IMG/VR virus record: IMGVR_UViG_3300017706_001678
Span: 1 to 58,312 of that record
Strand: one strand, 5' to 3'
Source of the DNA: a virus
DNA length: 58,312 bases
This document shows, one piece after another, positions 8,063 to 25,543 of the stretch; the stretch's first letter is position 1, and every line of letters starts with the position of its first letter. Below the pieces are notes generated by a model. It saw nothing but the letters and a program-made list of their open reading frames with translations. It ran no database searches and had not been told where the DNA came from. The position numbers and the translations under genes are program-made.

Positions 8063-9634
8063 GTGTATCAACGTAATGACTATATTATCAATCACAGTGT
8101 AAATGTAAACTTTGAAGATTTGCTAGAGATGACACCCGATCAGTTTAAAGATTGGGTTATTCTTATGAGAAAAACTTTTACTGAGATTTGGGACGATAAA
8201 GGATGTCCCCCAAGGACAGGAAAGTCGATAGAAGACATAATTAAAAAGTGGAACCTACTGGAGACCTTTCCAGTACATACGTATGAGCATACAGACGATC
8301 TGGGGACCTCTCAGGGGGATGTAATTATAAACAAGTCTCGTATTGGATCTGAGGTTGATCAGTTCTTTGAGAACATGTTCAAGACCAGAATCAATTATAC
8401 TGATACAGACAATGGATATTCCATTTATGATCTGGTGTCAGATCCAAATAGACTTGAGCAGGTCTATAAGGGGAGTCTTCGTCATTTTAGGCGAGACTCC
8501 TTTTATGACCATGCAGTTTCTGCATTAAAGAATAACAGAAAAGTTTCTGTAGTCTCTGTTTCTGATTCCAAAGAGTGGTTGAACGCTTTTTTTACTCGAC
8601 CAGAAATGTTCAAAGATACAGATTTTTTCTTGGAAGAAGTGAAACTACGTGATGGTTTAAGTAGTAGTTATAATCAAGTCGAACAATCAGATATCTTACA
8701 ACTAACAAAAGATCAAGTGTTAGAATGTAATGATAGTGGTCAGTTAAAATATAGACACCATTCCACATTTGATATTGAAAATATGCCTAATGATCGAGTA
8801 TATTCGATTCGTATTTATAAAAAGGGTGGTAAAGTTTTTCCGATTGGATTTAAGGCATTCAGAATTGGTTATATTCAACCTGCCGTAAACTTTCCTCCGG
8901 GAACTGCTAAATACTTATATGAGCGATACACCAAACCCGGTCAACATAAAATTAAAATTTACGACCCTTCTGCTGGATGGGGTGGTAGGATTTTGGGTGC
9001 TATGTCTGTTCGGGATAACCGTAATGTTCACTATATCGGTACTGATCCCAATCCTGATAATTTCTTCTCTGATGGAACTTCTCGTTACTCGCGTGCTGCA
9101 CATTTTTATAATTCTAAAACGTACAGAGGAAATTCATTCTTCTCCCACACAAATAGTTACGAGCTTTACCGACTCGGTTCAGAAGAAATAGGCAAAAATA
9201 AAGACTTTCTTAGGCATCGTGGTGACATCGATCTCGTATTTACATCGCCTCCATATTTTAATCGAGAGGCATATAGCGAGGACGAAAATCAATCCTACAA
9301 AAAATATGGCAGTACGTATGAGTCATGGCGAGATGGTTTTCTAAAACCTTCTTTACAAACGTGTTGTGATATGTTAAAATGTGGTGGATATCTCCTGTGG
9401 AATATAGCAGATATTCTAATCAAGGGTAAATATCTTCCTTTAGAAGAAGATTCTAGAAAATTTATAGAACAAAACGGATTAGTTTACGTTGATAAGTTAA
9501 AGATGGCTATGGAGGGAATGCCCGGACAAAACAGAGTTGGTGAAGATGGTAAGCCTAAATGTAAAAATTACTGCATGGTAAAAGGCAAATATTATAAATA
9601 TGAACCGGTATACGTCTTTAGGAAAGAACAATGA
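8063..9634 (+). CDS. DNA methyltransferase (amino-methylating, TSPPY motif)
   Basis: The protein has 523 aa with a GTG start behind AGGAGG. The C-terminal half is a Rossmann methyltransferase: motif I YDPSAGWGGRILGA (about 300-313) binds SAM, and motif IV TSPPY (394-398) is the catalytic loop of N4-cytosine or N6-adenine methyltransferases. CGGYLLWNIAD follows as motif V-like. The N-terminal about 260 residues are not recognised; they may carry target recognition or another activity. No restriction endonuclease is seen beside it, so protection of phage DNA from host restriction, or service as one step of a larger base modification with the upstream PLP enzyme, are the likelier roles (inference). 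The last codons overlap the next gene by 4 bp. Confidence 0.85.
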   Translation: MYQRNDYIINHSVNVNFEDLLEMTPDQFKDWVILMRKTFTEIWDDKGCPPRTGKSIEDIIKKWNLLETFPVHTYEHTDDLGTSQGDVIINKSRIGSEVDQFFENMFKTRINYTDTDNGYSIYDLVSDPNRLEQVYKGSLRHFRRDSFYDHAVSALKNNRKVSVVSVSDSKEWLNAFFTRPEMFKDTDFFLEEVKLRDGLSSSYNQVEQSDILQLTKDQVLECNDSGQLKYRHHSTFDIENMPNDRVYSIRIYKKGGKVFPIGFKAFRIGYIQPAVNFPPGTAKYLYERYTKPGQHKIKIYDPSAGWGGRILGAMSVRDNRNVHYIGTDPNPDNFFSDGTSRYSRAAHFYNSKTYRGNSFFSHTNSYELYRLGSEEIGKNKDFLRHRGDIDLVFTSPPYFNREAYSEDENQSYKKYGSTYESWRDGFLKPSLQTCCDMLKCGGYLLWNIADILIKGKYLPLEEDSRKFIEQNGLVYVDKLKMAMEGMPGQNRVGEDGKPKCKNYCMVKGKYYKYEPVYVFRKEQ

Positions 9635-10359
9635 CTAAACTAGGAACACGAGTAACAAAACAAGCAGAAGAAGTAGCAGAACACGTAGAAACGTGGATTG
9701 ATGGTTATATTGAAAACCTCAAAAATAATGATTATAATCGTAAAAAGAGACTGATTAATCTTCTTAAGACATACAAAATTAAAAAGTCTGATTCTAAGTA
9801 TTTGGCTCAGTGGTTTGCAAATCTAAAGGATGAACTAGGAGAAGCAATTGACCACAAAGATCCAGATCTAGTGGAAGGTTATGATTTTCTTAGTCCAAGC
9901 AAACTAAAGAAACTTCATCAGTTTGTTTCTGAGATCTGTGAAGACTTCACGAAGTATTCTAAGATTACCAAAAAGAGGAAGACTAAGAAACCAGAAGATA
10001 TTGTCAAGACACTTAAGTACATGGAAACTTTTAAGTTTGGTAATTGTGACATTACTTCTTTTGATCCAGTAAAGATTCTAGAATGCAAATCTTTTGTTGC
10101 ATATAACACAAAAACTGGTGACGTATTTTATTACGAGACTGATGATGTGTTTGATGTGAAGGGAACTACTTTACAGAATTTTAATGTGGATAACTCTTTT
10201 GTAAAAAAGGTTGGAAGAACCTCAAATAAACTAATTCCAAAATGTGCAGAAATCGGGAGGGCTTTGGTGAAGTCAGAGTTACTTAACATTAAGACTAAAT
10301 CTAGAGAAGCCACCGGTAGGTTTAATAATACCACTGTATTAGTTAGGGTCCTGTCATGA
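9631..10359 (+). CDS. Hypothetical protein, Lys-rich helical N-terminus
   Basis: I do not recognise this 242-aa protein. The first about 130 residues are charged and predicted helical, with KKRKTKKPED as a basic hinge. The C-terminal about 110 residues look like a mixed alpha/beta domain (SFVAYNTKTGDVFYYE, then TLQNFNVDNSFVKKVGR, ending in TGRFNNTTVLVRV). There is no signal peptide, membrane segment or catalytic motif. It is coupled on both sides by ATGA overlaps inside the gp46-gp45 interval, so it is expressed with replication and recombination genes. Confidence 0.8.
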   Translation: MTKLGTRVTKQAEEVAEHVETWIDGYIENLKNNDYNRKKRLINLLKTYKIKKSDSKYLAQWFANLKDELGEAIDHKDPDLVEGYDFLSPSKLKKLHQFVSEICEDFTKYSKITKKRKTKKPEDIVKTLKYMETFKFGNCDITSFDPVKILECKSFVAYNTKTGDVFYYETDDVFDVKGTTLQNFNVDNSFVKKVGRTSNKLIPKCAEIGRALVKSELLNIKTKSREATGRFNNTTVLVRVLS

Positions 10360-10670
10360 AAATTAGAGACTTTAATTTTCGTGGAGATTTTAGATTAAAT
10401 CATCCATCGGGTAATTCGATTTCATATGAAAAAGGTGATGTTGTTTATCACGAAAGCAAGGCATATATTGCATCCAAAAGAATTTCTGGATCTTCTCCTA
10501 GTTTAGGAGAAAGGGTTGGTTGGATGTCGTTGTCAGATAGATCTGTTCTATATGAATCTAATACTGTGCCTTTCTATGCTAAAATTGGAGACGAGTGGTT
10601 TGATACAAGTAATGGAATTTTATACAAAAGAATAGAAAGTAATTCTGTTCAAATATGGGTTGAACTATGA
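10356..10670 (+). CDS. Small protein with CBM5/12-like and GDxWF fibre-type modules
   Basis: The protein has 104 aa. Residues about 24-57 (YEKGDVVYHESKAYIASKRI, then a Gly/Pro segment, then W) follow the pattern of small chitin/cellulose-binding CBM5/12 domains. Residues about 76-104 (IGDEWFDTSNGILYKRIE, then IWVEL) match a module that also ends several fibre proteins elsewhere in this window. A virion or surface role would be usual for such modules, yet the gene sits among replication genes, 4 bp overlapped with each neighbour. Whether it is structural is unknown. Confidence 0.75.
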   Translation: MKIRDFNFRGDFRLNHPSGNSISYEKGDVVYHESKAYIASKRISGSSPSLGERVGWMSLSDRSVLYESNTVPFYAKIGDEWFDTSNGILYKRIESNSVQIWVEL

Positions 10671-10861
10671 AGAAGAAAAATAAAAGATTTTTTGAAGACA
10701 AGACACATAAAAAGGCAACTAGATCTACGGAAAGGAAAGAGAGCAAATCTCGAAGACACCAGACCAAGGATATTTTACACGATTTGTCCAGCAGAAGTCT
10801 TGACAAAGATCGAGTATATGATATGATGGATGAACTAGAAGATACAGAATGGAGCAACTAA
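10667..10861 (+). CDS. Small basic hypothetical protein upstream of gp45
   Basis: The protein has 64 aa. A strongly basic N-terminal half (MKKKNKRFF, then KKATRSTERKESKSRRH) is followed by an acidic helical C-terminal half (DMMDELEDTEW). Its place directly before gp45 is that of rpbA in T4, but it is half the length and I see no similarity to RpbA. It overlaps the preceding gene by 4 bp, and its TAA overlaps the gp45 ATG by 1 bp. Nucleic-acid or RNA polymerase binding is possible from charge only. Confidence 0.65.
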   Translation: MKKKNKRFFEDKTHKKATRSTERKESKSRRHQTKDILHDLSSRSLDKDRVYDMMDELEDTEWSN

Positions 10862-11568
10862 TGCATATTTCTAGAGAAACACTTTCGATTCTCAAAAACT
10901 TTAGGGATCTGAATTCTAACATTCTAATCAGTCCCGGTAATGTGATTAAAACACTGACTGGTGCAAAGAATGTTATGTCAACTGCAGTCGTACATGAAGA
11001 TTTTCCTGTTGAATTTGGTATTTGGGATCTCACCAGTTTTCTTGGTACGGTTTCGCTTTTCGATGATCCTGATTTTGATTTTCATGAGAAGTTTGTGACC
11101 ATCACGAATGGTAAGTCATCTAAGGTCAAATACTTTTACTCAGAACCAACTCTTCTTACAGTACCAACTAAAGATGTTGTTATGCCTAGTACTGTTGTTT
11201 CACTAACCCTAGACGAATCTGCGTTTAGTGAACTCAAGAAGGCTGGATCTGTTCTGGGACTTACTGACTTGACAATTAAGTCTGATGGTTCCGATGTATC
11301 GGCTACTCTTTATGACAAGAGTAATGCTGGTAGCAATACCTATTCAATCTCTATTGATAATGTCGAGTTCGAAGATGGTGCAGTATTCAACTTCGATTTC
11401 AATATCGACAATCTTCGTTTTATTCCCGGTTCATATACGGTGAATATTGCAGAAAAAATTGTCAGTGAATTCGTAAATGCTGATGGTATTGATTTGACAT
11501 ATTGGGTTGCTCTAGAGGCAACTAGTTCATATACAATGGAAACTGTAACCACCGGAGCATCTGTCTGA
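10861..11568 (+). CDS. 45: Sliding clamp gp45
   Basis: I chose the ATG at 10861 over 10849 because the resulting N-terminus, MHISRETLSILKNF, lines up with T4 gp45 (MKLSKDTTALLKNF). The length is 235 aa (T4 228). The fold has two clamp domains, including FNFDFNIDNLRFIPGSYTV near the C-terminus, which matches the T4 NFIINMANMKMQPGNY element. The trimeric ring tethers gp43 to DNA and also activates late transcription with gp55. It begins the conserved order 45-44-(GroES-like)-62-regA. Confidence 0.95.
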   Translation: MHISRETLSILKNFRDLNSNILISPGNVIKTLTGAKNVMSTAVVHEDFPVEFGIWDLTSFLGTVSLFDDPDFDFHEKFVTITNGKSSKVKYFYSEPTLLTVPTKDVVMPSTVVSLTLDESAFSELKKAGSVLGLTDLTIKSDGSDVSATLYDKSNAGSNTYSISIDNVEFEDGAVFNFDFNIDNLRFIPGSYTVNIAEKIVSEFVNADGIDLTYWVALEATSSYTMETVTTGASV

Positions 11569-15042: not shown

Positions 15043-15539
15043 CAATTGAAACAATAGAATTTAAAAATAAACTATATCCAAAATTTCAGAGTGAGGGTAA
15101 TGCATCTAAATTTGCAATACCTTTTGCTCAACATGTATGTCGAGGAATCGGGGTAGATATAGGGTGTGCTAAAAAGGAATGGGCATTTCCCGGATCTAAT
15201 CTAGTTGATCCCGCTATTAATGAATATAATGCTTCTAATTTTCCGTATGAAAATTTAGATTATATTTTTTCTTCTCATTGCTTAGAGCATATTCCATCGT
15301 GGGTTGACACAATGGAATATTGGTTTAGTAAATTGAAAGGTGGTGGAGTTTTATTTTTATACTTACCCGACTATAGTCAGGAATATTGGAGACCGTGGAA
15401 TAATAAAAAACATTTAAATATATTCACTTCTGATATAATTTATGATTATATGAAAGACAATGGTTATTGTAATATATTTAAATCTGGTGTTGATTTAAAT
15501 AATAGTTTTATGGTTTTTGGTGAAAAGGAAAATAAATGA
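15039..15539 (+). CDS. SAM-dependent methyltransferase (class I)
   Basis: The protein has 166 aa from the ATG at 15039, which overlaps the upstream TGA. Motif I GVDIGCAKKEW (about 33-43) and LDYIFSSHCLEHIPSW (D-x-h-x-(4)-C/V-L-E-H) are the signature of Methyltransf_11-like enzymes; GGGVLFLYLPDY follows. In a sugar cassette it probably methylates a sugar or a precursor. It is coupled by 4-bp overlaps on both sides. Confidence 0.82.
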   Translation: MTIETIEFKNKLYPKFQSEGNASKFAIPFAQHVCRGIGVDIGCAKKEWAFPGSNLVDPAINEYNASNFPYENLDYIFSSHCLEHIPSWVDTMEYWFSKLKGGGVLFLYLPDYSQEYWRPWNNKKHLNIFTSDIIYDYMKDNGYCNIFKSGVDLNNSFMVFGEKENK

Positions 15540-15985
15540 GTTTTTCTGATTTAAAAAGTAGAGTTGTTTGGACCAATGGGTGTTTTGATATTTTGCATCG
15601 TGGTCATATTGAAATGTTTAAAGGATGCTTTGAACTTGCTGGTCCCGAAGGTGTGGTTGTTGTTGGTGTAGATTCTGATGAAAGAGTAAAATCTTTGAAG
15701 GGAAATGACAGACCCTTTAATACTATTGGAGATAGAGTAGAAATATTAAGGGCATTGAAACTGATTGATGTTGTTGATGTGTTTTCTACTGATGAAGAAC
15801 TTAAGGGATTGATTAGTGAAGTACATAAACCAGATATTATGGTAGTAGGAGAAGAATATAAACACCAGACAGTCATTGGATCTGAATTTGTGGATGAGGT
15901 TAGTTTCTTTCCTAGACTTGGTAAATATTCAACAACTGATATTTTAGAATATCAAGGAGTAATAAATGAAAATTCTAAAAGGTAA
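15536..15985 (+). CDS. Cytidylyl/adenylyltransferase (HldE C-domain / GCT-like)
   Basis: The protein has 149 aa. It shows WTNGCFDILHRGHIEMF with the nucleotidyltransferase HxGH motif (HRGH at 21-24), GVDSDERVKSLKG, and DRVEILRALK, with the final KYSTTDILE replacing the family's R-S-(S/T)-T-x-I. These features are shared by ADP-heptose synthase (RfaE/HldE domain II) and glycerol-3-phosphate cytidylyltransferase. It activates a phosphorylated sugar or polyol with ATP or CTP. Together with the GT9-like gene, an ADP-heptose-type donor is plausible (inference). Confidence 0.85.
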   Translation: MSFSDLKSRVVWTNGCFDILHRGHIEMFKGCFELAGPEGVVVVGVDSDERVKSLKGNDRPFNTIGDRVEILRALKLIDVVDVFSTDEELKGLISEVHKPDIMVVGEEYKHQTVIGSEFVDEVSFFPRLGKYSTTDILEYQGVINENSKR

Positions 15986-16823: not shown

Positions 16824-17486
16824 ATGAAAATTTGTAGTATTATAACAGGCGTAATTAGACCTAATGTGGATCGTGTTTTTGAAAATATCAAAACCACTCT
16901 GTCAACCCTATCTGATTATAATTGTACACATTATGCCCTCACATATGAAACTGAAGAATATAAAAAACTCAAAACTCTCATAGACAACAGTGACTTAAAC
17001 ATAGAACTGATTTCTATCGATCCCATACTGGAAACTATAGGAAACTATAATGGTAATAATTATAGGATGTTTCGTTGTATTGAGATCCTGTGTAAACATG
17101 TGGATATAACAGAGGGTTTAGATTCGTTTGATTGTATTATTAGGCATCGAATTGACTGTGAGTTAAATAGTATAGAAATACCAAGTATTATGGAACATAA
17201 CACTTGGTATGCACCGGATTTACCTTGGGGTATATTTGACAATATTGGTATTACTTCCCCTGATATCTTTAGAAAAATTTTCACAACGCAGGAAAAGACG
17301 TTCCTAGAAAAAAATCCACATGATACTTTAGATGCTAGTATTGGAGACGTTGGTGTTATTAAAAAACCCTTCAACTTCAAAAAAACTTTATATCAAAGTA
17401 ATGATGAATTTGTAATGGGAGTACGTCAGTGGTCAAGAAAAAATAGAGTTTTTGAATACGATGGGAAATGGGTGAGCATTCATTGA
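16824..17486 (+). CDS. Putative LPS/glycan biosynthesis protein (WavE-like)
   Basis: The protein has 220 aa. MKICSIITGVIRPNVDRVFENI at the start, CIIRHRIDCEL in the middle (about 104-114) and a C-terminal FVMGVRQWSRK stretch resemble the WavE-type LPS biosynthesis proteins, in which an IR-x-R-x-D element and a final F-G-x motif are conserved. Similarity is judged by eye only, and a generic GT-A-like role is the safe reading. The 3' end overlaps the kinase-aldolase gene by 19 nt. Confidence 0.6.
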   Translation: MKICSIITGVIRPNVDRVFENIKTTLSTLSDYNCTHYALTYETEEYKKLKTLIDNSDLNIELISIDPILETIGNYNGNNYRMFRCIEILCKHVDITEGLDSFDCIIRHRIDCELNSIEIPSIMEHNTWYAPDLPWGIFDNIGITSPDIFRKIFTTQEKTFLEKNPHDTLDASIGDVGVIKKPFNFKKTLYQSNDEFVMGVRQWSRKNRVFEYDGKWVSIH

Positions 17487-18871
17487 ATACGATAGTAACA
17501 CTCTCTGGTAGCTCTGGTGTTGGAAAAACAACTTTGTCCGAATTGATTTCTTTAGTGATTGGTCCAGACAAAGTTGTAAATCTGTGTGGTGATGATTTAC
17601 ATTTGTGGGAAAGAAACGATGAAAACTGGAAGAATACAACACATTTAAATCCCGAGTCTAATAATATCGAAGGTGGATATCAAGATTTGATTTCTCTGTC
17701 AAACAACAACCCAATAAAACGGTGTAGGTATAACCATGATACTGGAAAGTTTGATCCTCCAGAGTTAATTGAACCAAAATCATATATTGTTTATGAGGGA
17801 CTTCATGCCTTGTTTGGTGATGTGAATGAAATATCGGATATAAAAATTTTTGTTGAAACTGACAAGGGACTCAAACGTCAGTGGAAAATGAACCGCGATA
17901 CACAAAAAAGAGGATATACCGTTGAACAGGTTAAAGATACCTTGGATAGAAGAGAAAAAGATGAACTATTATACATTCAACCTCAAAAAGAAAATGCTGA
18001 TGCCGTAGTTAGGTTCGAAGAGAAAAAAGACAGAACAGTTCATCTAGAATATACTGCACAAACGGATAAGTCATTGAAACTACTTGAACGGGTTAAGAGA
18101 TTGTACGATATGCACAGAGAATTTCTTTCGTTGTGTAAGAAGACTTCTTTTGAATATGACCTCGTTCAACATGGTGGTGGTAATGTTTCTTATAAGTTCG
18201 AGGATAAAATTATCATAACATCATCCGGCAGAGACATGAGTGAGGTTCTTATGCTTGATGGTTTTAGTGCATGTGATTCTGATGGTTATTCTATTGACGA
18301 GAGTCGGGAACGACCATCTATGGAAGTAAAATTACATACCAAGATTAAGTGGCCTGTTGTCTTCCATACCCATCCGATTTATTTGAATACTATACTTTGT
18401 TCCGAACAATCCGAGGAAATTATTTCAAAAATTCTTAAAGAGTATGATTACGACTATGTTCCATATGTTACTCCGGGTGAATCCTTGTCAAATATTTTTG
18501 ACATTTTTTTGATGTTGGGTAAAATTAGTCAAGAAAATAAAATTATATTACTAGAAAATCATGGACTCATTTGTAGTGGTTCATCTTTTATTGAAGTATT
18601 TGATAACTCTCTTCGTGTGAATCAGTTGTGCAAAGAGTGGTTAATTAAAAATTCAAAGGCATTCAAAACTTTTTCGAAAGTAGAATTCGACAAACCAGTT
18701 GGTTTTCTGTTTCCTGATGCGGTCATCCTCAAAGACAAGATGCAAAATTTAAACCAGTACATGACATACATACAAGGTGATGTTGGACTAACTCCAAGAT
18801 TTTTATGTGACAATGAAGTTGAGAAACTATTAAGTATGGAAGAAGAAAAATACAGGATGGGTGTACTATGA
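17468..18871 (+). CDS. Fusion of P-loop kinase (uridine kinase/PRK-like) and class II aldolase (FucA/AraD-like)
   Basis: The protein has 467 aa. Residues 1-200 are a nucleoside/sugar kinase: Walker A GSSGVGKT (14-21), GDDLHLWER, YNHDTGKFDPP and IVYEGLHALF, the order seen in uridine kinase/phosphoribulokinase. Residues about 207-440 are a class II aldolase: HGGGNVSYKF and IIITSSGRDMSEV match G-N-(I/V)-S and (T/S)-P-S-G. Zinc ligands H300 and H302 occur in FHTHP, and H365 in ENHGLI. Both active sites look intact, so one chain could phosphorylate a substrate and cleave or epimerise a phospho-sugar. TTG 17483 with a GGTGAG site is an alternative start and does not affect the domains. The next gene overlaps by 4 bp. 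Confidence 0.82.
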   Translation: MGEHSLNTIVTLSGSSGVGKTTLSELISLVIGPDKVVNLCGDDLHLWERNDENWKNTTHLNPESNNIEGGYQDLISLSNNNPIKRCRYNHDTGKFDPPELIEPKSYIVYEGLHALFGDVNEISDIKIFVETDKGLKRQWKMNRDTQKRGYTVEQVKDTLDRREKDELLYIQPQKENADAVVRFEEKKDRTVHLEYTAQTDKSLKLLERVKRLYDMHREFLSLCKKTSFEYDLVQHGGGNVSYKFEDKIIITSSGRDMSEVLMLDGFSACDSDGYSIDESRERPSMEVKLHTKIKWPVVFHTHPIYLNTILCSEQSEEIISKILKEYDYDYVPYVTPGESLSNIFDIFLMLGKISQENKIILLENHGLICSGSSFIEVFDNSLRVNQLCKEWLIKNSKAFKTFSKVEFDKPVGFLFPDAVILKDKMQNLNQYMTYIQGDVGLTPRFLCDNEVEKLLSMEEEKYRMGVL

Positions 18872-19695
18872 AAATTATCATACCAATGGCTGGATCTGGA
18901 CAGAGATTTATCGACAAGGGTTATTCTGATCCCAAACCTTTGATTAAGGTAAATGGGAAGATGATTATAGAATACATTCTTGAAATGTTTTCCCCGACTG
19001 ATGATTATGTTTTTGTGTGTAACGACGATCACCTCGAAAATACAAACATGCGAGAAGTGTTAATTGGTCTTGTTCCTGATGCAAAAATCGTTTCTATGCC
19101 TCCTCATAAATTGGGGCCTGTTTATAGTGTGAAACAGGTATATGATCATATAGAGGATGATGAAGAGGTTATAGTTTCATATTGTGATAACCCATACCTG
19201 TGGGACAGAAACGATTTTATACGACACATTAAGAATAATGAACTGGATGGATGTGTGATTTCTCACAGTGGGTTCCACCCTCACAGTTTAAATCACACCA
19301 AGATGGCTTTTATGAAAACCAAAGATGGATTGGTACGAGAAATAAAAGAGAAAGAGTGTTACACCGATGATCCCATGAACGAACACGCATCAACGGGAAC
19401 TTATTATTTTTCTAAAGGGAAGGATATAAAGAAGTATTTTGACCTTGCAATAGAAGAGAATGTTAGTTATAATGGTGAATATTACGTTACGCTCGTTTAT
19501 AATCTTTTCGTTAGAGATGGTTTGCGGGTTGGATATTATGATACCCCATTTGCAACTGTAATGGGAACACCGGAAGAAGTAGAAAATTTTGAGTCATGGG
19601 TAAGTATTTTGACCAAGGGACAAGTGAACTCAGAGGAAGACCTAGTAAAGTGTTATCGTTACTGGAAAGAATACCATGCAAGTGATCTTTGTTGA
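18868..19695 (+). CDS. Sugar-phosphate nucleotidyltransferase
   Basis: The protein has 275 aa. The N-terminal IIPMAGSGQRF motif (about 4-14), followed by DPKPLIKVNGKMII, is the NTP-binding loop and PKPL(I/L) element of RmlA/GlmU-type NTP transferases. VSYCDNPYLWDR gives the metal-binding aspartate, and NGEYYVTLVYN the sugar-binding region. It forms NDP-activated precursors for capsule or LPS. The next gene starts inside it with a 20-nt overlap. It is a distant paralogue of the gene at 20393. Confidence 0.88.
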   Translation: MKIIIPMAGSGQRFIDKGYSDPKPLIKVNGKMIIEYILEMFSPTDDYVFVCNDDHLENTNMREVLIGLVPDAKIVSMPPHKLGPVYSVKQVYDHIEDDEEVIVSYCDNPYLWDRNDFIRHIKNNELDGCVISHSGFHPHSLNHTKMAFMKTKDGLVREIKEKECYTDDPMNEHASTGTYYFSKGKDIKKYFDLAIEENVSYNGEYYVTLVYNLFVRDGLRVGYYDTPFATVMGTPEEVENFESWVSILTKGQVNSEEDLVKCYRYWKEYHASDLC

Positions 19696-19975
19696 CATTG
19701 ATGAAACCATCTGTGATACGCCAGATAATCCGAGAGACTACCACAGATCCGTTCCACGGAAAAAAATAATAGAGAAGATCAATCATCTATTCGACGAGGG
19801 TAACCGAATAGTTTATTGGACAGCTAGGGGAAGTAGAAGTGGAATTGATTGGTTCGATCATACAGAGAAACAGTTAAAAAGTTGGGGCGTTAAGTATCAT
19901 CAACTGAGATGTGATAAACCGTATTACGATATTTTTTATGATGACAAAACAAAAAATAAAATTGATATCCCATAG
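19676..19975 (+). CDS. Minimal HAD-family phosphatase
   Basis: The protein has 99 aa, a capless HAD. Motif I is FVDIDETIC (DxDxT, nucleophile D7). YWTARGS serves as motif II (Thr), a Lys in the HTEKQLKSWG helix is likely motif III, and YYDIFYDDKT motif IV. Such very short HADs are frequent in capsule loci, where they dephosphorylate small phospho-polyol or phospho-amino-alcohol intermediates (established for some Campylobacter enzymes; substrate here unknown). It overlaps both neighbours. Confidence 0.8.
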   Translation: MQVIFVDIDETICDTPDNPRDYHRSVPRKKIIEKINHLFDEGNRIVYWTARGSRSGIDWFDHTEKQLKSWGVKYHQLRCDKPYYDIFYDDKTKNKIDIP

Positions 19976-20396
19976 AGGAAATTTGAACGGAGTTAATCCG
20001 GATAGAGAAAATTCTCCATCATATATTCAGGAGGCAATAACTGCTGGATATGATGTTGAGATTGATGTTCATTGGTGGAACAGTGGTATTTGGTTGGGAC
20101 ACGATAAACCGGATTGGGAGATTCCCCTGTCATTTTTAGAAGACATAAAGGACCGTGTGTGGATTCATTGTAAGAATTTTCAAGCGTTTAGTCATCTACT
20201 CAACACAGACTTTAGGATATTCTTTCATGAAAATGAAAGATATGCTATGATAAATAACGGGTTAATATGGGCCCACGATCTAGATATGATAAATGAAAAG
20301 TGCATAATACCACTCCTATCGAAAGAACAAGTACTGGGTTGGGAAGAAACAAAAGTCTATGGAGTTTGTTCTGATTATGTGGAGTTGTTCAAATGA
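19938..20396 (+). CDS. GDPD-like (glycerophosphodiester phosphodiesterase fold) protein
   Basis: The protein has 152 aa from the ATG at 19938; ATG 19941 is equally possible and neither has a Shine-Dalgarno site. ISHRGNLNG followed by ENSPSYIQEAITAGYDVEIDV matches the GDPD core H-R-G-x-x-x-x-x-E-N-(S/T)-x-x-A-(F/I) and the E-x-D metal pair. The usual GDPD has about 250 aa, so the barrel is shortened. Role inference: processing of a phosphodiester-linked polyol in the cassette. It starts 38 nt inside the HAD gene, suggesting translational coupling. Confidence 0.72.
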   Translation: MMTKQKIKLISHRGNLNGVNPDRENSPSYIQEAITAGYDVEIDVHWWNSGIWLGHDKPDWEIPLSFLEDIKDRVWIHCKNFQAFSHLLNTDFRIFFHENERYAMINNGLIWAHDLDMINEKCIIPLLSKEQVLGWEETKVYGVCSDYVELFK

Positions 20397-21130
20397 TAAA
20401 TCTAATAACTTTAGCAGGTGAAGGTTCTAGGTTCTCTGATGCTGGTGTAGAAACACCAAAACCTTTAATTGAAGTTAACGGCAAACCCATGATTATAGAA
20501 GCCGTTTCTTGTCTTCCAGAAGCAGACTGCCATGTCTTTGTCTGTAGAACAGAACACATAGAAGAACATTCTATAGACGAAATTATAAAGGACTATTATC
20601 CAGAATCAGAGTTTGTTGTTTTAGACAAAACAACTATGGGACAAGCTTGTACGGCTGAAATTGGCATTTTACAATCGTCAATACATGAAGACGATTCAAT
20701 CACGATAAGTTGTTGCGACTATGGTTTAGAGTGGTCTAATGAAAAGTACGAGAGTGTGAAGAAAGGTTCTGATGTTGTTGTCTGGTCAACCATAAACAAC
20801 GCTGCGTTTTCCAACAATCCAAGTTCTTATAGTTGGTTGGAAACATCGGGCGATAGGTTAACAAAAACACATGTAAAACAAAATTTTTTCGATGATCCCT
20901 TTAACAATCGTGCCATAGTGGGTACTTTTTTCTTCAAACGGGCCGGTGATTTTTTAGATGGGGTGTCTAGGATATACAGGGATGTTATCAAGAGTAATGG
21001 TGAATATTACATTGATAATATTTTTAATAGTATAGGTCATCTAGATGTGAGTATATTTGATGTTGATGAGTATCATTGCTGGGGAACTCCAGAGGATTTG
21101 TTGAATTATGAAAATAGATTATTGGGATAA
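20393..21130 (+). CDS. Second sugar-phosphate nucleotidyltransferase
   Basis: The protein has 245 aa. It opens with LITLAGEGSRFSDAG and TPKPLIEVNGKPMII, the NTP transferase loop and PKPLI element, then SCCDYGLEW with the metal-binding Asp and NGEYYIDNIFN near the C-terminus. Its layout mirrors the 18868 gene (same CDN/CDY and NGEYY elements), so they are diverged paralogues that probably activate different substrates. It overlaps the previous gene by 4 bp and the next by 23. Confidence 0.87.
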   Translation: MINLITLAGEGSRFSDAGVETPKPLIEVNGKPMIIEAVSCLPEADCHVFVCRTEHIEEHSIDEIIKDYYPESEFVVLDKTTMGQACTAEIGILQSSIHEDDSITISCCDYGLEWSNEKYESVKKGSDVVVWSTINNAAFSNNPSSYSWLETSGDRLTKTHVKQNFFDDPFNNRAIVGTFFFKRAGDFLDGVSRIYRDVIKSNGEYYIDNIFNSIGHLDVSIFDVDEYHCWGTPEDLLNYENRLLG

Positions 21131-22205
21131 AAGCCAATCTGGATCCATAAGAACTGTTTCCGAAAAAAGAAACATAAAGATTGGTGAGTTTAGAGATTGT
21201 ACAGTGGAGGGTTTTTCTTTAAATTACCCCCAACCGTTATTGCACACCAACGATGAACTTTTACTTCCCACTATAGAAAAATTTATGTCTTTGGGTAGGG
21301 GAACCGTCTATGAAGACACAATGGAATATGAAACATCCGAAAAAAGACTTTGGGATGTTAGATCGATTACAACACCGGTTTTTTACTTTGTGTACAATTG
21401 TGCTAATTATTTTCACTGGTTGTATGATACGGTTCCTTACTTATACTCTTACTTCGATCTTAAAAAACAAATTCCAAATTTGAAATTGTTAATTAGTCCC
21501 CCCGAAGGAAAAGATGATCTATATCCATTTGTATATGAAACTCTAGAACTATTAGGTATAGCAAAAAATGATTTAGTTTTTTTGAGAGATGATGTGTCTT
21601 ACTTTAGAGTTTTTGTTGGCTCCTCTTTAACTCACAATAGAATGTCTCTGGATCCACCGCATCCTGCTTTATACGAAATACTAGATTCGATGGAGGGAAC
21701 TAGATCCGATGTGAAGAAAGTCTATGTTTCAAGAAGAACATGGACAAAGAAAAGGAATGAAAATATCGGAACTGATTATACACAACAGAGGAAATGTGTT
21801 AACGAAGATGAAGTAGCGGAATTTTTTATTCATAACGGATTCGAAGAAGTTTTCACTGAAGACTTGTGTATGGAAGATAAAATTGGATTGTTTCGTAATG
21901 CAGATTTTGTAGCAGGACCGATTGGTGGTGGGATGTCAAATGCTCTATTTTGTAGACCGGATTGTATGGTGTTGTCGATAAACAGCCCTGAGTTCTTTGA
22001 TGTTAATAGAAGGTTGGAGTTTGCCATGAACAGGACCGACTTGATTCATTTCAATGAAACAGAATTTGTAGACAGAAAAGAAGAAGTAGAGACACACAAA
22101 AATGCTCTTTCGATATTTGGGGGTATAAATTCCAGCTGGAAAGTAGATATAAATAAACTGAAAGAACTGATTGAAGTTCAAATGAAAGATTATAGGAGTA
22201 GATAA
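21108..22205 (+). CDS. GT61-family glycosyltransferase (DUF563)
   Basis: The protein has 365 aa. Family landmarks in order are NYFHWLYDTVPYLYS (about 95-109), KVYVSRRTW, CMEDKIGLFRNADFVAGPIG and GGMSNALFCRP. These are the capsular-polysaccharide/GT61 (DUF563) signature, with GPHGAG replaced by GPIGGG. It transfers a sugar to a surface glycan; donor unknown. The start lies 23 nt inside the previous gene, and its TAA overlaps the next ATG. Confidence 0.82.
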   Translation: MKIDYWDKSQSGSIRTVSEKRNIKIGEFRDCTVEGFSLNYPQPLLHTNDELLLPTIEKFMSLGRGTVYEDTMEYETSEKRLWDVRSITTPVFYFVYNCANYFHWLYDTVPYLYSYFDLKKQIPNLKLLISPPEGKDDLYPFVYETLELLGIAKNDLVFLRDDVSYFRVFVGSSLTHNRMSLDPPHPALYEILDSMEGTRSDVKKVYVSRRTWTKKRNENIGTDYTQQRKCVNEDEVAEFFIHNGFEEVFTEDLCMEDKIGLFRNADFVAGPIGGGMSNALFCRPDCMVLSINSPEFFDVNRRLEFAMNRTDLIHFNETEFVDRKEEVETHKNALSIFGGINSSWKVDINKLKELIEVQMKDYRSR

Positions 22206-23528: not shown

Positions 23529-24110
23529 ATGACTAATGAAATTAATTTTCCTGCAATAAATGGAGTTGATGGTTTATCATGTGATACCTATCCTTTTGGG
23601 TGGACATCTGGTTGTAGTCATTCAGATGGAGTAAATAAAGGATTTACACAGGAATGGTTTTTTGATGGTAGACTTGGTGCTTGGGTTTCTGATACAAGAG
23701 TTCAAAAAGAATATCCTAGCGTTAACATATTAGGTCAGGGTTTGGCATCTGTTGGACTTACATATGATGCACATCTCAGTATTTCTGATATTCATTTTAT
23801 TGGATTTGCTGATGGGGCACCGTCGTCTTTTTCTACTACGATTAGATTTTTAGATCCACCGACATTAAACTCTTTTGCGGAAGTAACATTAATTGTTGAT
23901 AATCCGAATGCCCCAACAGAATTAAATGTTGTCGGTCTCAATAGTAGTGGAGTTACCGGAACTGTACATATGGATAGAACAATAACCAGTGATACTGCGG
24001 ATGGTCTTACTGGTGGGATCCATATGTGGAAGATATGGAGCATTGATGGTGGTACTAACTATTATATGTACCGAGCAAACGGATTTGGACGATTTTGGGA
24101 TGATTCATAA
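23529..24110 (+). CDS. Fibre-associated structural protein with INFPAxNG module
   Basis: The protein has 193 aa. The first about 55 residues (EINFPAINGVDGLSCDTYPF, TSGC, then GFTQEWFFDGRLGAWVS) are nearly the same as the start of the protein at 52227. They belong to the common phage virion pattern of a short strand, a Gly/Asn turn and a final W-x-W-(D/N)-G-x-x-W. The remainder is beta-rich without recognised family. It is the first gene behind a late promoter and overlaps the collagen-like fibre by 1 bp, so a tail fibre role is likely. Confidence 0.7.
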   Translation: MTNEINFPAINGVDGLSCDTYPFGWTSGCSHSDGVNKGFTQEWFFDGRLGAWVSDTRVQKEYPSVNILGQGLASVGLTYDAHLSISDIHFIGFADGAPSSFSTTIRFLDPPTLNSFAEVTLIVDNPNAPTELNVVGLNSSGVTGTVHMDRTITSDTADGLTGGIHMWKIWSIDGGTNYYMYRANGFGRFWDDS

Positions 24111-25543
24111 TGGCTAAATGGATTGTAAAAAAGACCATAAGCGATTCAATAAAAAAGAATCAGATTATAGAGGAGACTAATCTGATTCATATTGAAGCTA
24201 TTAGTCTGTCTGAATATGAGGGGGGATTTAACTTTTTTTCCAAAGGAAAGAATTTTAAAACTGAATCTGGTTCTGTAGTTAAATTATTAGGAAAACGATC
24301 TGATTATAATGAATATTTACAGGAATATGATGGAAGTAAATTAAAAACGTTTAGATGGAAAGGTTCTCCCTCCGTAAATTTATTTGCGGGTAAAGCATAT
24401 AAAGAAAGTCCATTAACTAATTTTGATAGATCCTGTGTTTTAGACGCAGGTACAAACAAAATATTTCTAGAGGACGGATCCGAAGTTGTTGCAATACGTG
24501 GATCTAGAAAAAAATTCAATGAGTGTATGGATATTTTGATTGAAGATACACCATCCAATAACGAATTATTGGATATCTTAGTTGAAGATGACAAAATAAC
24601 TAAACGTGAGTACGTAACTGAAATAATAAAAGAAGAAAAACTAGTTGGTCCCGATGGACCACGAGGATTTCCGGGTGAGCAGGGTCCTGTTGGGGATGAT
24701 GGTCCTGCTGGACCAAGAGGAGATCGTGGTGATGCTGGTCCACGGGGAGAACCCGGTAAAGATGGAACAGATGGTAAAGATGGAACAGATGGTAAAGATG
24801 GAATTGAAGGTGTAGTTGGACCAAAAGGTGAAACTGGTGATCGTGGAGAAAAGGGTGATCAGGGAGAGCAGGGTATTCCCGGTGAGGTTGCACAGAAGGG
24901 AGAACGTGGTGCTATAGGTCCAGCAGGACCTAAAGGAGATAGGGGTCCTCTTGGTCATTCTATTCCCGGCAAACAAGGCGAACAGGGACCTGCCGGACCA
25001 ATGGGTAATACTGGAAGTGCTGGACCTACCGGACCAATGGGTAATAAAGGACCTAGAGGTGCGTCAATAATAGGACCAGAAGGTCCACAAGGACCAAAGG
25101 GAGATGATGGAGAATCTCCGATAGTAAAAGCAAAATATCCTCTTGTTTATAATAAAGATCGTAAGTTATTTACAATTGATAAGAAGTTTTTTGAAAAACT
25201 TCTGTCTGGTGGTAGCGTAAATGAAAAAATGATGAATAATTTTGTCACTGCAGCAGCGGTTGCTGGTGGTGGTGGATTGTCATCAATTAAAGATGGTAAC
25301 AATTCAGATATAGCTTTTGTTAGAAATCCAGAAGATTTAATTTTTGAGGGGTCTGGAGTTTCACTAAATAAGGTGGGTGGTAAGAGTGTAAGAGTTTCAA
25401 TTTCGGGTGGTGGATCTGCTGGGAGCAGTGTGTATGTTTCCGATGATGCGCCTTCTGGAACTTTTGTTACTGGAGATAGGTGGATAGAGTCTGATACCAC
25501 TAAGCTTTTTACTCGTTATGAAGATTTATGGGTAGAATTCTAA
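24110..25543 (+). CDS. Collagen-like tail fibre protein
   Basis: The protein has 477 aa. N-terminal about 178 residues: mixed domain with an acidic helical end. Residues about 179-336: G-X-Y triplets with several short breaks (for example [19 protein letters not shown]), including three repeats of GKDGTD-type triplets, expected to form a trimeric collagen-like shaft. C-terminal about 130 residues: a globular head ending in a [20 protein letters not shown] module shared with other fibres here. Collagen-like segments are common in phage fibres and can rearrange by slippage. Confidence 0.88.

Follow-up and report, generated by a model that had tools for sequence, protein, structure and literature searches.

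The locus described here raises the question of what a marine phage does with a single protein that carries a P-loop kinase in its first half and an aldolase in its second. The window, by which we mean the whole stretch of 58,312 nucleotides that was analysed (IMG/VR record IMGVR_UViG_3300017706_001678), is a 58 kb contig of a marine T4-like phage with members of the UvsW-like helicase, SbcC-like nuclease subunit, clamp loader, DNA polymerase and DnaB-like helicase families; psbA was not found in this contig. The fused gene is located on the plus strand at 17468..18871, starts with ATG, encodes 467 amino acids and overlaps both flanking genes by a few bases. One uninterrupted frame in this ORF holds GSSGVGKT, EGLHAL, GGGNVSYKF, SSGRDMSEV, FHTHP and ENHGLI, all the motifs on which an earlier note on this DNA had based its claim of a single chain fusing a kinase to a class II aldolase, and that chain is indeed present. 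The kinase half matches the Pfam family PRK (PF00485, 3.5e-36) over residues 9-182 (17492..18013) and the aldolase half matches Aldolase_II (PF00596, 1.9e-20) over residues 221-391 (18128..18640), both matches exceeding the Pfam gathering scores. The C-terminal tail of the aldolase half (residues 392-467; 18641..18868) ends in E-x-(Y)-R, with E460 and R463 invariant, and this ending is common to the stand-alone aldolases of phages and bacteria. The gene may start at the TTG at 17483 (462 amino acids) instead of the ATG at 17468, because its closest distinct relative (L002) begins there with MNTII; in the window this TTG overlaps the upstream stop as TTGA.

The fused chain was found to be open throughout in 29 diverse homologues with 35-75% identity to the window protein, and the catalytic residues of the kinase and of the aldolase were all invariant among them, as the earlier note had expected when it stated that both halves keep their key residues. 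An AlphaFold2 model of the fusion, based on a 29-row alignment of the fused homologues, was confident (pLDDT 92.2, pTM 0.90); a plasmid-derived row was left out of one structure-prediction alignment. Foldseek searches with the kinase half of the model returned phosphoribulokinases (PRKs; best 3.1e-19, a cyanobacterial PRK first) and with the aldolase half L-fuculose-1-phosphate aldolase (FucA; 2opi, 7.2e-11). According to this model a PRK-like and a FucA-like fold are both present in one chain, which agrees with the family folds that were to be checked by structure prediction. The possibility that the chain is an error of assembly, or two genes decaying into a read-through, is practically negligible in view of these diverse intact homologues, their invariant catalytic residues, the confident model and the supported clade of fused aldolases described below. 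Among the viral structures of BFVD, the fusion was best matched by A0A2H4UUW4, a class II aldolase of the giant Bodo saltans virus.

The kinase half has a predicted PRK/uridine-kinase fold with the Walker A motif GSSGVGKT and the catalytic Asp/His dyad D42/H90, the counterpart of the Asp/His pair of plant PRK (PMC9978339). Among the family models it scored 190.6 bits with PRK07429 and 69 bits with uridine kinase, although the former value remains below the curated PRK07429 cut-off of 236 bits. The residues His55, Arg59, Tyr98, His100, Lys151 and Arg154 of Methanospirillum hungatei PRK have been described as conserved ribulose-5-phosphate (Ru5P) and ATP ligands (Kono et al. 2017). Using phmmer alignment onto the positions in that study and in PMC9978339, their counterparts in the window protein are H45, R49, Y88, H90, K140 and R143, where R143 is the mapped ATP ligand and the other five are mapped Ru5P ligands. 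These ligands and the Asp/His pair were invariant in 12/12 diverse cassette kinases (the kinases of the gene cassette described below) and in 29/29 fusions, which supports a kinase acting on Ru5P. However, the loop following R49 is unlike that of true PRK, and a signature H-x-W-x-R-x4-W-x3-T-H (W47, W54, T58-H59) was found in 104/107 cassette kinases and in 0/34 PRKs. In the kinase tree the 34 ordinary PRKs formed a separate group with support 100/98, and the cassette kinases were located outside this clade. Because of their own signature, this position and the missed PRK07429 cut-off, the sugar pocket of the cassette kinases may differ from that of PRK. Judged by sequence, the kinase half is therefore PRK-like with the Ru5P site kept rather than a certified PRK, with a predicted activity from Ru5P to ribulose-1,5-bisphosphate (RuBP). 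A uridine kinase or pantothenate kinase was ruled out by the model scores and by the structure ranking, in which PRK structures were placed higher. The label "sugar/nucleoside kinase" that the earlier note had given to this half thus holds for the P-loop kinase, but is too loose for a PRK-like protein with retained Ru5P ligands.

The aldolase half scored 74 bits with PF00596 against a cut-off of 22.2 bits. Its zinc ligands H300, H302 and H365 and its acid/base residue E286 were invariant in the 29 fusions, and E286, in a PS-x-E-x3-H motif, aligned to the acid/base Glu of FucA in a profile-to-FucA alignment. FucA-type enzymes were among the nearest solved structures, and we consider this half, from its sequence and predicted model, to be L-fuculose-1-phosphate-aldolase-like within the class II aldolase/adducin superfamily. 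The curated equivalog cut-offs were missed (FucA_Meth 38.2 vs 250 bits; ribulose-1-phosphate aldolase NF053831 23.7 vs 300 bits). Since the MtnB, AraD and FucA models were all weak and scored close together, and since the natural substrate of MtnB is a ribulose-1-phosphate, the second half could be an AraD-like epimerase or MtnB-like dehydratase acting on ribulose (bis)phosphate, with the rearranged pentulose phosphate then activated by a nucleotidyltransferase. We find this improbable: a profile of the phage and bacterial cassette aldolases placed FucA (68-43 bits) above the dehydratase MtnB (33 bits), FucA was the top Foldseek match on the aldolase side, and the acid/base residue is the Glu of FucA, whereas AraD has an Asp at this position. 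Zinc-dependent aldol cleavage, the preferred reading of this half, is supported by the invariant zinc ligands and acid/base Glu and by the nearness of the FucA structures.

Downstream of the fusion, all on the plus strand, are located nucleotidyltransferase A (NTP_transf_3, phrog_3980; 18868..19695), which overlaps the fusion by ATGA, a small capless HAD-like phosphatase of 99 amino acids with weak EcbF-BcbF and HAD-IIIA matches (19676..19975), a short GDPD-like protein with invariant H-R, E-x-D, H-D and K (19941..20396), nucleotidyltransferase B (20393..21130), which is homologous to part of a double nucleotidyltransferase of about 520-556 amino acids in other phages and bacteria, and a glycosyltransferase family 61 protein (21108..22205), which is a neighbour in 38/82 viral kinase loci. 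The GDPD catalytic set H-R, E-x-D, H-D was invariant in 19 GDPD-like sequences; the protein is short, has no Pfam match and gave a weak Foldseek match to GDPD 2o55 (E 2e-3). Further along, adjoining the glycan genes, 24110-25543 encodes a putative protein in which collagen-like Gly-X-Y repeats extend over a long stretch.

When viral loci were selected from IMG/VR by the kinase alone and partners were counted within about 8 kb, the 82 usable loci contained an aldolase in 77, a nucleotidyltransferase in 74, a GDPD-like gene in 79 and a small HAD in 64 cases. The kinase and aldolase were fused in 45 of them, some on near-copy contigs, with 33 distinct kinase domains. A nucleotidyltransferase and a GDPD-like gene were both present in 43 of these 45 fused loci and the HAD as well in 28, which confirmed the proposed linkage of these neighbours to the fusion, while 17 of the 45 had no nearby copy of the small HAD; the HAD as an obligatory step was thereby ruled out. 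Kinase, aldolase, nucleotidyltransferase, small HAD and GDPD-like protein make up a conserved cassette, of which the fusion is a part. In phage loci of the separate type the kinase and aldolase are unfused, the nucleotidyltransferase is the double protein of about 520 amino acids and the kinase carries an N-terminal extension of about 220 amino acids. Two upstream genes were rejected as cassette members, a cytidylyltransferase (15536-15985) and the ORF at 16824-17486, as the profile of each matched one kinase locus only among those scanned; a profile search of the kinase loci also gave no support for this ORF being the counterpart of the N-terminal extension. In the aldolase tree the fused aldolases grouped together (support 95/84, and 96% of bootstrap trees), and from this grouping a single fusion event behind the fused viral loci is likely. 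The fusion had been described as unfamiliar in phages, and this holds for annotated phages, with none in 50,697 records, but not for uncultivated ones, in which it is not rare; the fusion has therefore been hidden in uncultivated viruses.

In a scan of a genome collection the cassette kinase was found in at least 46 loci and an ordinary PRK in at least 34; the loci were chosen by the kinase, so that partner genes were not part of the selection. The 46 listed cassette loci contained a double nucleotidyltransferase in 43, a HAD in 44 and an aldolase in 40 cases, whereas in the 34 listed PRK control loci, which are mostly archaeal and on somewhat shorter contigs, the same profiles found 0, 1 and 0, respectively (Fisher p from 1.7e-16, for the aldolase, to 1.8e-19). 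This enrichment argues that kinase, aldolase, nucleotidyltransferase and HAD belong together. Most of the listed cassette loci also had a DPM-like GT2 and a GDPD-like gene, and fewer had GtrA. Among the matches listed, the bacterial kinase in most cases formed the C-terminal region of a membrane protein resembling GT-C, and no locus had the kinase-aldolase fusion; the search for the fusion in bacteria that the earlier note had suggested thus found its parts as separate genes. With the GT-C-like fusion in bacteria and the extension of about 220 amino acids in the separate-type phages, the kinase has several fusion partners. The record titles covered Pseudomonadota, Bacillota, Bacteroidota, Bdellovibrionota, Chloroflexota, Chthonomonas, Obscuribacterales and archaeal MAGs, where MAG contamination may explain single taxon cases. 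The best NCBIfam match of the bacterial HAD in Pseudomonadota, Bacillota and Bacteroidota was the haloarchaeal RuBP 5-phosphatase NF053830, at 137-180 bits and always below the cut-off of 330 bits. Rubisco was absent from 19 of the 20 bacterial cassette genomes examined, so any RuBP made there would not be destined for CO2 fixation. In E. coli the cassette occurred in 2 of 5,426 complete genomes, both times on plasmids, which indicates that it is no standard E. coli capsule system.

Several individual bacterial loci were also noted. The entire bacterial cassette is aboard the E. coli IncR plasmid NZ_CP145712.1 (L007), where the gene at 8897-10876 joins the kinase to a membrane protein resembling glycosyltransferases. 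In Candidatus Regiella insecticola (L094) the double nucleotidyltransferase is in three pieces and there is no aldolase up to the contig end; this copy looks decayed. Three Lysobacter loci (L103, L118 and L122) have a RuBP-phosphatase-like HAD, which in L103 and L122 is the C-terminal end of an open frame of about 910-950 amino acids.

These neighbourhoods bear on the idea that a uridine-kinase-like domain and a DHAP-shunt aldolase serve nucleoside or methylthioribose/5-deoxyribose salvage with no role in glycans. Automatic annotation is in line with it, as one bacterial homologue is called "uridine kinase" and a cyanophage aldolase is called "5-methylthioribulose/5-deoxyribulose/fuculose 1-phosphate aldolase". 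However, the kinase half clearly prefers the PRK model and PRK structures over uridine kinases, and it is surrounded by nucleotidyltransferases and glycosyltransferases in phages and by GtrA, DPM-like and GT-C proteins in bacteria, which makes salvage very unlikely.

Based on these findings we propose, with a probability just under one half (about 0.48), that the fusion is a bifunctional enzyme for a glycan precursor, in which a Ru5P kinase is followed by cleavage at a zinc aldolase site and the products feed an activated building block. The kinase half would phosphorylate C1 of Ru5P, or of a very similar ketose-5-phosphate, to the 1,5-bisphosphate; the phosphatase, where present, would remove the C5 phosphate to give ribulose-1-phosphate; and the zinc site of the aldolase half would split the C3-C4 bond to dihydroxyacetone phosphate (DHAP) and glycolaldehyde. 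As 17 of the 45 fused loci have no small HAD nearby, the bisphosphate might also be cleaved directly, in which case DHAP would be released together with glycolaldehyde phosphate. One of these phospho-compounds could then serve the nucleotidyltransferase and the GDPD-like enzyme in making or trimming an activated surface-glycan building block, and the fusion would hold reactive, unstable intermediates on one protein. In haloarchaea a RuBP 5-phosphatase followed by a ribulose-1-phosphate aldolase, a FucA homologue, has been shown biochemically to give DHAP and glycolaldehyde (PMC9700705). The bacterial cassette has enzymes that match both of these and a PRK-like kinase ahead of them, which suggests the order from Ru5P to RuBP, usually to ribulose-1-phosphate, and to DHAP and a C2 aldehyde; what the enzymes act on, in which direction the aldolase works and what is made in the end are inferred. 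Since DHAP is cheap to obtain, a dedicated route would be sensible only if the C2 aldehyde or ribulose-1-phosphate is wanted, and no enzyme obviously using glycolaldehyde was recurrent in the cassette. The "short-chain phospho-polyol" that the earlier note had proposed as product was not supported, as no reductase recurs among the conserved partners and an aldolase of this type yields or uses DHAP and an aldehyde.

Selection by the GDPD-like gene gave three layouts: kinase and aldolase both present, aldolase without kinase, and nucleotidyltransferase and GDPD-like gene alone. The cultured cyanophages S-SM2 and Bellamy have the second layout. In whole-contig searches psbA/psbD were found in 16/17 contigs of 80 kb or more that have the aldolase without the kinase, and in 0/16 kinase-bearing ones, and the kinase profile was absent from all kinase-less records searched. 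The kinase-less aldolases formed one clade nested among the kinase-bearing ones, so the loss of the kinase counts as one evolutionary event and not as 16 independent cases. That phages of RuBP-making hosts are without the kinase fits the proposed kinase step, with host PRK supplying RuBP. It is a tentative possibility, to which we give clearly less weight than to the bifunctional precursor enzyme itself, that RuBP is an intermediate toward a surface-glycan precursor in phages and in Rubisco-less bacteria, that phages of non-cyanobacterial hosts bring their own kinase (fused to the aldolase in one lineage) and that cyanophages drop it and draw on the Calvin-cycle pool of the host, some with the aldolase beside psbA/psbD.

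The same enzymes might work in the building direction, where the aldolase builds a ketose-1-phosphate from DHAP and an aldehyde, the kinase phosphorylates this product or another ketose phosphate, and the nucleotidyltransferase activates the new ketose. FucA-type aldolases join DHAP to many aldehydes (PMC9700705), and the near-constant nucleotidyltransferases, the altered loop after R49 and the loci without HAD are compatible with such a route. The retained Ru5P ligands speak against it, as do the resemblance of the bacterial HAD to RuBP 5-phosphatase, which fits a kinase ahead of the aldolase, and the loss of the kinase alone in cyanophages, which fits an upstream supply step; taken together we regard this direction as rather unlikely.

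Compared to the closest known systems, the kinase half shares with PRK (cyanobacterial 9qko/9qkp, M. hungatei 5b3f) the fold, the Walker A motif, the Asp/His dyad and the named Ru5P/ATP ligands at about 30-36% identity to the solved structures, but it is fused to an aldolase, is without the remainder of PRK beyond about 190 amino acids and differs in its W/TH signature, separate clade, sub-cut-off PRK07429 score and lack of a carbon-fixation context. The aldolase half has the fold, the three zinc His and the acid/base Glu of FucA (2opi, 1dzw) and of the haloarchaeal ribulose-1-phosphate aldolase (NF053831), but is fused to a kinase, misses the equivalog cut-offs and belongs to a nucleotidyltransferase cassette instead of sugar catabolism. 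Similarly, the bacterial cassettes hold homologues of both enzymes of the haloarchaeal non-carboxylating pentose bisphosphate pathway beside the kinase, whereas haloarchaea reach RuBP from ribose-1-phosphate via ribose-1-phosphate kinase and an isomerase, no glycan genes are reported there (PMC9700705) and the phages use another, small HAD. GtrA, DPM-like GT2 and GT-C-like proteins of the bacterial loci are also those of glycan-decoration cassettes, to which an extra precursor module is added here, consisting of the double nucleotidyltransferase, the GDPD-like protein, the kinase fused to a GT-C-like protein, the HAD and the aldolase. In the literature searched, no paper described the fusion, the cassette or an aldolase of this family in cyanophages, and known enzyme families have apparently been assembled into an undescribed fusion and cassette. 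The two suggest a use of ribulose phosphate outside carbon fixation and offer a testable case in which a PRK-like enzyme would work apart from the Calvin cycle, its cassette being found across phages and many bacterial phyla. If the proposed chemistry is true, it would open a new way to building blocks activated by nucleotides, would account for annotations such as "uridine kinase", "class II aldolase" and "sugar pyrophosphorylase", and would point to cyanophages drawing off an intermediate of the Calvin cycle.

Additionally, in nine cyanophage contigs (L282, L284, L285, L287, L292, L302, L309, L314 and L329) a stand-alone aldolase with the catalytic motifs kept is located 259-1174 bp from the nearest psb gene (psbA/psbD). 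These aldolases belong to a sub-clade, and it is possible that they are an unrecognised photosynthesis-linked auxiliary gene. In S-CAM9 (L171) and in L206, L213, L225-L231 and L240-L248, where the kinase and aldolase are absent, a nucleotidyltransferase-containing protein of about 455 amino acids is found together with the GDPD-like gene, and this nucleotidyltransferase/GDPD pair looks like the invariant core of the cassette.
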